64,000 nt of DNA from Bacteroidales bacterium (GTDB taxonomy: Bacteria; Bacteroidota; Bacteroidia; Bacteroidales; Paludibacteraceae), in contig SUXC01000007.1 in assembly GCA_015061165.1 (NCBI GenBank), positions 1 through 64,000 on the forward strand, in the 5' to 3' direction. Shown here in pieces: positions 531 to 63,845 of this stretch (position 1 is the first letter of the stretch; every line of letters begins with the position of its first letter). A program made the translations under genes and the position numbers. The notes under the pieces are model-generated. The model ran no database searches. It had not been told where the DNA came from and saw only the letters and a list, made by a program, of their open reading frames with translations.

Positions 531-718
531 TTTCGTCTTCCCTCCATCTGTCCTGCTCTGCGGGGTCCCCGAAATAATCGTTCGAGCGAATGCGAGATAA
601 GAAAACGCTCGTGGCGTTTTGGGGTGCACTTTGCGATTCCCATCGCGAGAAATCCCCGCCTTTACACCTTACACTTTCCACTCTACACCAGAAAAATTGC
701 CCTAAAACACGATTTTTC

Positions 719-17357: not shown

Positions 17358-17570
17358 GAATAGTAAAATTTGCATTTTCAAAAAAATGCACTAAAAATAC
17401 CCATATTCCACCCCTATTCCATAGACACATAATGACCGCTTGAATGTTTAATGTTGCACCCGCTTTCACTAACATGCAAAAACGTTGACACTTTTTTGCA
17501 TGTGGTAAAGTGATGTGGTGGTGGGAGTAGGGTGTAAGGTGTAGGGTGTAAGGTGTAAAGGCAGAAGATA

Positions 17571-17876
17571 CCCGAATACCATTCGGGACAATAAACAAAG
17601 AAATAGTTTATAGGTTATAGGCGATGGGTACTCGAATATATTCGAGGCAATAAACAAACAAGAAAGCGGGGATTTACTCGGCGAATACGCCGAGGGTTTA
17701 ACCAATGACAGGAACTTGCTCGGCGGGAAAGCGCCGAGGTCTGAACAACACAGAAATCCCGAATGACATTCGGGGGAATAGACATAGAAGAACTCGCGGG
17801 GTAGCCGCGAACGGTGTAGAGCGTAGGGTGTAGAATGTGGAGAGTAGAGGCGGGGAGAACTCGAATGATATTCGAG
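17571..17876. repeat. Array of seven short palindromes with differing arms
   Basis: Palindromes at 17571-17587 (CCCGAAT/ATTCGGG), 17631-17646 (CTCGAAT/ATTCGAG), 17677-17694 (CTCGGCG/CGCCGAG), 17719-17738 (CTCGGCG/CGCCGAG), 17758-17774 (CCCGAATG/CATTCGGG), 17794-17810 (TCGCGG/CCGCGA) and 17860-17876 (CTCGAAT/ATTCGAG). Several are followed by (A/G)CAATAAACAAA. The arms differ between units yet always remain complementary. Confidence 0.8.
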
Positions 17877-18105
17877 ACAATAAACAAAGAAATAGGTTAG
17901 AGGTTAGAGGCGATTAGGCGAGGAGGCGATTAGGTATTGGCTATGGGCGATTGGCGAGAGAAAACCTCAGTCGCTTTGCGACAGCTCCTCTATTGAAAAC
18001 AGGGAGCAGATGCGTGACCTTAGCGTAACATCTGCGTAACATCTGCGCAACATCTGTGCAACATGTGCTGCGTCGGAAGTTGCTTGCAAGATTTTTCTCC
18101 GAATA

Positions 18106-18122
18106 CCCGAATAGCATTCGGG
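18106..18122. repeat. Outlying palindrome of the same family
   Basis: CCCGAATAGCATTCGGG followed by GGAATAAACAAACA, the same arm and downstream sequence as the units at 17571-17876. Other members occur at about 419-435, 511-527 and 42777-42793. Confidence 0.75.
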
Positions 18123-18807
18123 GGAATAAACAAACATATTGGCGATTGGATATTGGATATGGGGTATAGCGGCTCCGATGTGTAAAGTGTCAAGTGTAAA
18201 GTCGATAGAAATTGAAATTGAATAATGCGCGTGCGCGAAAATCAATATATAAATACTTCTTTACATTAGTCTCGAGAAAATAGTAGTTGATCTGTACAGA
18301 CAAAATAGTAGATGCGACTTGCTCATTGCAAATCGCATCGACTTGACACTTGACACTTCACGCATCATTAGTTACTGACGGTTTATTTTGGGCATTTGTT
18401 AAGGTTTGCTCCGTTTCTTTTACCTGCATTCGGCTCTGTATTTCTTCTCTGTTCAGTCCGTAGAAGCTTTCCAATTTTTCCCCCCCCCACACTCACTCAC
18501 GAAGTTCTTATCTCCCTTCGGTCGAACGATTATTTCGTGGGGACCCCGAAACCTTAAAGGCTTGCCGAACGCGAGCGTCAAGTGTGAAGTGTAAAGTGAA
18601 TGCGATTTGCAATCTGCAAGTCGCATTTATTTGTGTATTTGCCATTATATGTATAATATTGATAATTAGTAGATTATGAGGCGCGTTTTGCAAAATCCGA
18701 GAAAAACACCCCACAAGTCCGAGAAAATGCTTACCTTTTTGATACCTATCCAGTATATACATAGTGTATGGCGCCTTCAACCTTCACTCCTTCAACCTTA
18801 ACACATT

Positions 18808-18918
18808 ATGGCAAAAATCATTCCTATCGACCAAATGGCATTCAAGGCACAAAGCAAGTACACCACCCTCCGTCAGTACGTCTGGAACCAAGAGTGGAAC
18901 GCGTACACCCCTGCGTAA
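18808..18918 (+). CDS. Possible 36-residue peptide or gene fragment
   Basis: ATG at 18808, 36 codons (begins MAKIIPIDQMAFKAQSKY, ends NAYTPA), TAA at 18916-18918. The amino acid composition is protein-like and unlike the repeats around it. It may be the surviving N-terminus of a truncated gene. No matching promoter box was found. Confidence 0.3.
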   Translation: MAKIIPIDQMAFKAQSKYTTLRQYVWNQEWNAYTPA

Positions 18919-18944
18919 CGTGTAACATTACCAACCACTGACAT

Positions 18945-19093
18945 GGTGGGAAATATACCAACCACTGACAAGCACGGACAGACACGGAAACACGATATAT
19001 ATATATATCCTTAGTTCAGTGTAGTTCCGTGCAGTTCAGTGGTCAAATCATCACCGCGGAAAGATGTCTCTTGGTGGGAAATATACCAACCAC
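18945..19093. repeat. 22 bp direct repeat pair
   Basis: TGGTGGGAAATATACCAACC plus AC occurs at 18945-18966 and 19072-19093; each contains GGT...ACC arms around GGGAAATATACC. Both are followed by a (T/G)GAC(A/G)-AACACGG-like sequence. No gene is between them. Confidence 0.7.
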
Positions 19094-19235
19094 GGACGAA
19101 CACGGAAAACAGCACGCGGGAATTATGACGAATATTGATAAAAAGGTAGTACCTTCGAGGGCACCGACCTCGTTCGCTTGGCGAACTCGCCCACCTCGAA
19201 AGTACGTTCGCAAAATGCTGAACATACTACAGTTC

Positions 19236-19374
19236 GCTAGCAATATTTTTTGAAAATAAGGTTACACCTTTGCATCCAATCTCCAATACCGCAACTTCAA
19301 GCAGGCTTGAGTGAGGCATTGGAGATCGTATGCAGATAGATAAATCTATCCCATTTTCAAAAAATATTGCTAGC
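19236..19374. repeat. Nested 139 bp palindromic element
   Basis: Perfect 22 bp outer arms (19236-19257 and 19353-19374; GCTAGCAATA... inverted) enclose 95 bases. Inside, ATCTCCAAT at about 19279 pairs with ATTGGAGAT near 19320 and the pairing continues toward AAGC/GCTT, giving a second long hairpin. TTC borders both outer ends. It could be a miniature inverted-repeat element, an invertible segment or a hairpin RNA; it ends six bases before the promoter of the hexosaminidase gene. Confidence 0.75.
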
Positions 19375-19379
19375 TTCAC

Positions 19380-19410
19380 TTGCAAATGTGCATTATTTGT
19401 TGTACCTTTG
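19380..19410 (+). promoter_or_regulatory. Promoter of the GH20 hexosaminidase gene
   Basis: TTG 19380-19382, 20 bases, TACCTTTG 19403-19410. Nearly the same 36-base sequence serves trhP on the other strand at 23719-23753. Confidence 0.75.
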
Positions 19411-19430
19411 CAGGACTTTACAAATATAAA

Positions 19431-42635: not shown

Positions 42636-42893
42636 TTAAGTCATAGGTTCTTTTGACAAGTCGCGTCTTTTCGCGCACGCAAATAAATCCATATCTTTGC
42701 ACAAAAATTGCAAGGTATGGATTTTTCTTTTGATTCTATTGCTATTGTCCCCGAGCTGATTTGTTTGTTCATTATTCCCGAATACTATTCGGGTTTTCTT
42801 GCCTTTACACCTTACACTTTACACCATATAGGGCGGTCTTTGGCGTTCTAAAAGTCCTTCCCTTTAGGGGAGGATTTAGGAGAGGCTCCCCCT

Positions 42894-43590: not shown

Positions 43591-43951
43591 ATCACCTTAT
43601 CTGTTATACCCTCTGCGTACACACCGAGTAAACTTCCCGTTACTTGTTTAGCCTTGCGCTTCCGCCCGCAAGTGTTTCTCGTATTCCCACCACCTGTCTA
43701 GTGCTTGGCGCTAACTCGCTGAGTAAATATTCCTCCACCCTGCTCGACGGTGTCCCGTCTCATGTTTCCCGATTCCCTAATCTCCAAACTCTAAACAGTA
43801 GGCGCATACGGGGTCCCCGAAAACGCTCGTGGCGTTTTGGGGTGCTTGACGAATGCTATTCGGGTATCTAGTGCGACTATCTAACCCGCCACTTGTTTTG
43901 TTCTCGGCGATGGTTCGCCGAGCAAAAATACACACAAAATCACCATTATAC
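43591..43951. other. Repeat-filled spacer left of the accessory island
   Basis: No gene seen. It holds the left 150 bp repeat (43649-43798), a GGGGTCCCCGAAAACGC hairpin also found near 547-620, a CGAATGCTATTCGGG palindrome (about 43853) and a CTCGGCG/CGCCGAG palindrome (about 43904-43922). Confidence 0.6.
43649..43798. repeat. 150 bp direct repeat, left copy
   Basis: Same length as 48763-48912, with about 11 mismatches by eye (about 93% identity), same orientation. The two copies bracket a 5 kb island of unknown genes. Many mismatches fall in palindrome arms (for example CGCTGAG versus CGCCGAG). Confidence 0.85.
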
Positions 43952-45430: not shown

Positions 45431-45509
45431 TTATTCTAAGACAAATAATAAAAGGAGAAAGCCGAAAATCCGAGAAAGAGTAGGCGACTTATTTAATAAA
45501 TCTAACATT

Positions 45510-48762: not shown

Positions 48763-48912
48763 TAGCCTTGCGCTTCCGCCCGCGAGTGTTTCTTGTATTC
48801 CCACCACCTGTCTAGTTCTCGGCACTAACTCGCCGAGCAAATATTCTTCCACCCTGCTCGACGGTGTCCCGTCTCGTGTTTCCCGATTCCCTAATCTCCA
48901 AACCTTAAACAG
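48763..48912. repeat. 150 bp direct repeat, right copy
   Basis: Matches 43649-43798 in length and order. Contains an intact CTCGGCACTAACTCGCCGAG palindrome that is partly broken in the left copy. Confidence 0.85.
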
Positions 48913-63492: not shown

Positions 63493-63845
63493 CTTTTTAT
63501 TTGGCAAACTTCATTTTTCTTTTTGAAGTATCACTGCTACCCTTTTGCTCCACCCATCGGTTCCGATTTCTCCGACTACCTCTTGTGTCCCCTATTGGCT
63601 GTCTTGTGCTCGCGGTTTCCCCGCGAGCATATTCCAGCCTTTACCCAACTTCCACACTACCACACTACCACACTACCACATAAAATAATGTGTCGAATAT
63701 TAGAAAAACGCTTTTTTAGGGCGATTTTTCTAGTGTAGAGTGTAAAGTGTAAGGTGTAAAGGCAGGAGTATAAGCCAAAATCAGTGATTAGAACATTCGG
63801 TATAGCCACAAAGGTCATAAAAATTACGTTTTTTTTATTATACGC

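Follow-up and report, generated by a model that had tools for sequence, protein, structure and literature searches.

We analysed a window of 64,000 nucleotides, the first 64,000 positions of contig SUXC01000007.1 (forward strand) in a draft genome of a Bacteroidales bacterium of the Paludibacteraceae (GCA_015061165.1), in which a dense field of palindromes lies at positions 17571-18122. We propose, with a probability of roughly three in four, that this field is a pile-up of orphan single-strand hairpin elements, similar to repetitive extragenic palindromes (REPs) and belonging to two lineages that resemble the REP-associated tyrosine transposase (RAYT) systems. The hairpins fall into two families, their arms pair far more often than control sequences do, and they are dispersed across the genus, where they are linked to a Y1/HUH transposase gene whose phylogeny they match. 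The enzyme would cleave beside the hairpins and make them mobile, and in the window genome it would have been lost, or missed by the assembly.

Two hairpin families and the pairing of their arms

A preliminary description of the window, made from the letters alone, had reported at least eight palindromes in 550 bases, several of them followed by a common sequence. Both statements hold. The 552-bp field contains eight perfect hairpins (arms of at least 6 bp, loops of 0-9 nt), whereas 1000 dinucleotide shuffles of it average 0.475 and never exceed 4. With arms of at least 7 bp there are seven, against a shuffled mean of 0.138 and a maximum of 3. The sequence AATAAACAAA follows four of the eight hairpins exactly, and its variant AATAGACATA follows a fifth.

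The first family, type A, is defined by arms of the form C[C/T]CGAAT, a loop of at most 3 nt and, after 2-3 further bases, the tail AATRRACAWA. It accounts for five of the eight hairpins, all on the + strand: CCCGAAT-acc-ATTCGGG at 17571-17587 (tail AATAAACAAA at 17590-17599), a CTCGAAT hairpin at 17631-17646 (the same tail at 17649-17658), CCCGAAT-gac-ATTCGGG at 17758-17774 (tail GGAATAGACATAG), CTCGAAT-gat-ATTCGAG at 17860-17876 (tail AATAAACAAA at 17879-17888) and CCCGAAT-agc-ATTCGGG at 18106-18122 (the same tail at 18125-18134). Type B has CTCGGCG or CTCGCGG arms and a loop of 4-6 nt, and its intact copies are followed by CACTAAAC. Its three members, again on the + strand, are CTCGGCG-aata-CGCCGAG (17677-17694), CTCGGCG-ggaaag-CGCCGAG (17719-17738) and the type B-like TCGCGG-ggtag-CCGCGA (17794-17810), which lost the outer pair. 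This division bears on the earlier claim that the arms co-vary: CCCGAAT and CTCGAAT belong to one family with short loops (at most 3 nt) and the AATAAACAAA tail, CTCGGCG and TCGCGG to a second one with longer loops and a different tail, so that much of the arm difference within the field lies between two families and is not compensation within one.

The part of that claim concerning an excess of pairing stood up when examined across genomes. We used 96 stretches matching the CCCGAAT..ATTCGGG plus tail pattern in contigs outside the window genome (loci L015-L110, numbered here with the prefix L), located the outer CYCG..CGRG bases 8-14 nt apart and scored the next three bases on each side. Since these loci had been selected by the CCCGAAT pattern, the AAT class was dropped from the count. 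The inner triplet was fully paired at 50 of the remaining 146 places, compared with 3.5% (864 of 24557) when any other outer 4-mer was taken; these cells are not independent, because some copies are tandem or orthologous. The paired triplets other than AAT were GCG, CGG, ACT, CAT, GCA, ACA and two singletons, and within the window five of the eight inner triplets outside the AAT class were paired. In 40 loci we counted 170 perfect hairpins, against 34 after block shuffling. Base composition was considered as the source of the excess and rejected on the strength of the shuffling and of the control 4-mers. An alignment of mixed types (A1), in which the type B stems were misaligned, was not used for model building.

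A covariance model of type A, built from six copies and applied at E < 1e-4 to the window genome (2.47 Mb in 32 contigs, 98% complete), recovered 23 copies on 13 contigs, 21 of them outside open reading frames (ORFs) of at least 120 aa. All 23 copies have a perfect 7-bp stem, a figure that leans on a model which rewards pairing. The type B pattern was found at 15 sites, against none for a backward-pattern control. Among 25 genomes of the same genus the window genome has the highest number of type A copies (0-14 in the others), a lead that is partly inflated since the model came from that genome. As to the wider distribution, 95 of the 96 stretches with the pattern carry the label of Paludibacteraceae or of other Bacteroidales, many being metagenome-assembled genomes (MAGs) from the ruminant gut; the exception is a KSB1 MAG. 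A gut member of the Paludibacteraceae is accordingly the most likely source of the window genome. The candidate 5' flank 'GAATA' was considered as a foot of the element and found to be only loosely kept.

Paired arms could also be maintained if the hairpins acted in transcripts, as terminators, mRNA stability elements or protein-binding sites, with selection operating on the RNA. The mostly intergenic position of the copies is in line with this idea, as is one copy directly after a hairpin resembling an intrinsic terminator (L122). So is the site of locus L131, where the hairpin is found at the same spot in six of seven species, with an unchanged stem and differing loop lengths; four of the seven species had been selected by the hairpin pattern, so the sample is biased. 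Nevertheless, T-runs are absent after the 3' arm whichever direction is read, an Rfam search of the window found no family in the field and, as described below, the hairpin classes go with particular transposase lineages, whose genes they occupy and surround. We consider an RNA-level role to be quite unlikely as the explanation. The sole Rfam match in the window, a DUF805b RNA motif (RF02914, 42.9 bits, 45452-45486), is unrelated to the field.

A linked Y1/HUH transposase in related genomes

A BLAST comparison among the loci fetched by hairpin revealed that a gene of about 1 kb adjoins the hairpins in distant genomes. It encodes a Y1/HUH transposase with the motifs M-P-D-H-x-H and Y...NPxRL, the HUH motif and the tyrosine being invariant in 14 of 14 aligned members (L065, with a stop codon, and the partial L109 were excluded from this alignment, A4, and L169, with one stop, from alignment A3). 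The gene is present in 16 of the 24 other genomes of the genus, often as several copies and paralogues, and a few further families of the Bacteroidales have full-length relatives too. With E values up to 1 admitted, the Pfam Y1_Tnp model matched 12 of the 14 members (25.3 bits for L168 and 22.8 for L156 with a cut-off of 23, the rest lower or none), and PADLOC gave no match. The linked REP-type Y1 transposase suggested by the preliminary description was thus found in the relatives and not in the window genome, where a Pfam Y1_Tnp search by itself missed the system.

The hairpins are part of the gene as well as of its surroundings. In 40 of 47 distinct stop-free ORFs the linker that separates the HUH motif from the catalytic tyrosine holds an in-frame hairpin of at least 6 bp; broken copies are uncounted, since the ORF filter admitted only stop-free frames with both MPDHxH and Y...NPxRL. 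Hairpin density is 4.77 per kb in this linker and 1.41 per kb in the remainder of the ORF. A set fetched by protein similarity (L141 and above, including the query's own gene L141) was tested apart and gave 26 of 31 ORFs with a linker hairpin, 25 of 31 with one of at least 7 bp. The arms vary by lineage (CCCGAAT, CCCGCAT, CCCGACT, TTCGCTCA, TCAGCCA, CGGCGAT and others), and in 12 of the 20 ORFs of the protein-fetched set with hairpins in both linker and flank the two share an arm 6-mer, compared with a mean of 2.2 and a maximum of 7 in 2000 shuffles. The TTCGCTCA hairpin illustrates the arrangement, with five copies upstream of the gene, one inside and one after it. The stop codon lies inside a hairpin in 5 of the 47 ORFs; in L102 it is supplied by the first of seven hairpins that follow the gene with a 40-bp period.

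On a protein tree built without the linker, hairpin class changes 15 times, against a mean of 23.1 and a minimum of 20 in 1000 shuffles (31 rows; a quick tree, with 16 of its 44 inner branches starred). Type B-like linker hairpins are found in L171 (the gene of the paralogue L156, with CTCGCGG and CTCGGCG) and L178 (CTTGCGG), which form one supported clade. Each of the window's hairpin types therefore corresponds to an enzyme lineage of its own, for type B on the strength of these two genes. In L156:269-3855 (- strand), the L156 gene stands between an N6-methylase gene (HsdM-like) and a type I specificity gene (HsdS-like), on the same strand as both neighbours and overlapping the latter.

These data also bear on the view that no dedicated enzyme is involved, template switching at quasi-palindromes during recombination or replication being enough to create hairpins and to perfect them. 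Such slippage would account for perfect stems with loops of varying length and for tandem arrays like that of L102; it predicts neither the conserved tails nor the dispersal over 13 contigs, and the agreement between hairpin class and transposase tree also argues against it. We regard it as very improbable, the least likely of the alternatives. A copying mechanism that preserves hairpins, one of the two causes offered in the preliminary description, fits the evidence.

The predicted structure of one type A enzyme (L067, pLDDT 85.1) has a Y1 fold at residues 6-171 and a second domain at about 173-324. Its N-terminal half resembles the TnpA proteins of IS608 and ISDra2 as well as 4er8, the structure of a RAYT in complex with a REP hairpin; the linker that bears the hairpin is a stretch of low confidence (residues 123-131 below 50). 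Predicted alone, the C-terminal domain reached a pLDDT of 89.6 and had entries of ShosA and DprA as its only matches at Z 8.5-11.5 (130-139 residues), the next unrelated entry scoring 5.5, and Foldseek likewise returned a DprA-like fold. According to this model, the C-terminal half has a DprA-like Rossmann fold. By sequence, no DprA family was among the Pfam matches of the 14 members, a phmmer search of one protein against the PDB gave chance matches only, and a profile search gave a weak match to ISDra2 (E 0.008). Shorter ORFs, roughly 150-230 aa long, match the C-terminal part alone (L211-L213, from genomes G145, G050 and G173, and in G136) and are perhaps stand-alone versions of the DprA-like domain.

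Further copies and neighbouring repeats in the window

Relatives of the field had been noted at 0.4, 42.8, 43.9 and 48.8 kb, and the first three places contain intact hairpins. At 0.4 kb, types A and B are adjacent as a composite, as is often the case elsewhere in the genome: a type A hairpin (511-527) is joined to a type B hairpin (466-485), the next composite has a type A hairpin (419-435), and an imperfect type B copy, TTCGACG..CGCCGAG, lies at 365-418, all on the - strand. A type A hairpin lies at 42777-42793 (-) and a type B hairpin at 43903-43922 (no strand assigned). The copy at 48.8 kb turned out to be an imperfect type B with one mismatch (48818-48837, -). We found in addition a type B hairpin CTCGCGG..CCGCGAG at 63609-63627 (no strand assigned) and a type A hairpin at 43850-43864 (-), whose 3' arm is cut by a second palindromic element at 43809-43843.

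This second element has the structure GCACCCC, a hairpin with varying arms, and CGGGGACCCCG. It is present in the window at 43809-43843 (-) and 561-625 (-), and further in L006, L133, L033 and L042. Read by eye, the flanks place six of the 13 distinct copies among the loci within the 3' arm of a hairpin of type A or B, as though this element targeted REP hairpins; some of those six, plus some others, were flagged by an automatic arm test. The array with variable inserts described earlier can be specified accordingly: spacers and short G-rich repeats make up the inserts, joined in some cases by this second element in the 3' arm. The G-rich repeats, of the GTGTAGGGTGTAAGGTGTAAAGGC type, stand ahead of many type A copies and occupy 17524-17567 and 17813-17850 of the window. 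After the B hairpin, a motif AATCTTAACAAAA..GCACTTTTTT is recurrent in many intergenic regions (L116, L120, L126 and others).

Directly downstream of the field lies an inverted repeat of 55 bp, 85% identical between its two halves (18309-18363 and 18575-18629). The region at about 18821-19416 contains repeats of about 270 bp that recur on seven or more other contigs of this genome, several of them near contig ends.

Relation to REP/RAYT systems and proposed mechanism

The system shares with the REP/RAYT pairs (REPtrons) of Escherichia coli and Stenotrophomonas maltophilia short intergenic hairpins of which each class flanks its own Y1/HUH gene. A gene with an HUH motif and one tyrosine is linked to the repeats in the relatives, with no match in the window genome; it is flanked by a hairpin class specific to its lineage, as seen in the shared arm 6-mers and on the tree; and extragenic copies are numerous (23 of type A and 15 of type B), even if fewer than the more than 100 per genome given as usual for REPs in the accessible part of PMC2817692. 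The S. maltophilia REP is described as an 8-bp stem with a 3-nt loop, as here, and its RAYT as recognising a perfect stem with a 3-nt loop (available text of PMC8266576). Compensatory changes have been reported for REPIN hairpins (in the accessible portion of PMC3116915). The differences from REP/RAYT systems are the absence of a GT[AG]G foot, the DprA-like C domain, the scores below the curated NCBIfam cut-off and the lack of a detected enzyme in the window genome.

Among the TnpAREP proteins classified in the available text of PMC6006769, subclass 2.4, which also occurs in Bacteroidetes, is known for REPs inserted in frame between HuH and Y, as in 40 of the 47 ORFs studied here. That subclass is characterised there by NH[IFV]H, no C-terminal extension and REPs with GT[AG]G or a double foot, in contrast to the MPDHxH, C domain of about 150 aa and lack of GTAG seen here. 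Subclass 2.6, mostly from Bacteroidetes, has atypical hairpins devoid of GT[AG]G elsewhere in the genome, and subclass 3 likewise lacks this foot; subclass 2.6 differs in its NH[LIV]H motif and a mean length of 179 aa, no large C domain being reported in the accessible part of the article. The likeness to IS200/IS605 elements (IS608, ISDra2) lies in the Y1/HUH fold of the N-terminal half, the best Pfam Y1_Tnp score being 25.3 bits with a cut-off of 23, and that to DprA and ShosA lies in the fold of the C-terminal half, without a DprA match by sequence. REPs and Rickettsia palindromic elements can likewise interrupt unrelated coding sequences in frame; their host genes are varied (accessible text of PMC3733652), whereas the palindromes studied here sit in the putative transposase gene that belongs to them. 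In-frame REPs inside a tnpAREP gene are not new; the points of difference from subclass 2.4 are the MPDHxH motif, the missing GT[AG]G at the hairpin foot and the domain resembling DprA. Our literature search, the reach of which did not include the 2017 RAYT classification (Bertels et al.), returned nothing joining DprA with RAYT or TnpAREP. Given the shared traits together with these three features, we file the system as REP/RAYT-like and not as a canonical member.

Several results speak against our proposal. The Pfam Y1_Tnp model and two protein queries detected no transposase in the window genome. The GTAG foot is present in 0 of 23 type A copies, the perfect stems of these copies were scored by a model favourable to pairing, and 8 of the 20 linker and flank pairs are without a matching arm. 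Six of the proteins scored 17, 32.7, 41.8, 38.8, 30.3 and 42.9 bits with the NCBIfam REP-transposase model NF047646, for which the cut-off is 80. Across 24 genomes the association of hairpin with transposase is not significant (14/2/4/4, p = 0.13), the link between type B and its enzyme rests on two genes, and in further families of the Bacteroidales three fusion genes (L205, L206, L208) have hairpins in their flanks but none in the linker. Finally, a clean and unbiased empty site was not obtained, locus L131 having the hairpin in six of seven species and lacking it in L041; the window field itself gave no empty site in relatives because synteny is broken there.

One variant of the proposed scenario, not exclusive of it, is that the system is still active in the window species, with a RAYT-like gene inside a gap of the draft assembly. 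Five of the 23 type A copies are within 1.5 kb of a contig end, where 0.9 would be expected, and the transposase gene may therefore sit in a gap; the largest type A copy number among the 25 genomes of the genus and the perfect stems point the same way. The completeness of the assembly, the three negative transposase searches and the inflation of the copy count by the home-built model weigh on the other side, and we judge this variant doubtful, although it deserves more credit than the RNA and slippage explanations.

In the mechanism that we envisage for orphan REP-like elements, each lineage in the relatives would comprise a Y1/HUH enzyme with a DprA-like C domain and a matched hairpin in the flanks and within the gene. 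The enzyme would bind the hairpin in DNA that is transiently single-stranded, for example on the lagging-strand template, and would cut and rejoin beside it, so that copies spread. Recognition and copying would be limited to copies able to fold, and enzyme and hairpin would diverge together, which would explain why the arms change in pairs. A more speculative extension, which we think unlikely, starts from the predicted two-domain architecture: the Y1 nuclease would cut beside the hairpin and the DprA-like domain would pass the freed strand to RecA, with spread by strand invasion or DNA uptake and not by transposition alone. The hairpin inside the gene could then act as a lasting template or provide a binding site for self-regulation, its arms co-evolving with the enzyme. 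The coupling of the enzyme to recombination is a guess based on the structural model.

How REPs spread is an open question, and here a single genus offers many pairs of enzyme and hairpin that have diverged in parallel (CCCGAAT, CCCGCAT, CCCGACT, TTCGCTCA, TCAGCCA and others), so that the rules of recognition may be read from natural pairs. The DprA-like domain predicted on the enzyme suggests, in addition, a concrete tie between single-strand cutting and recombination.
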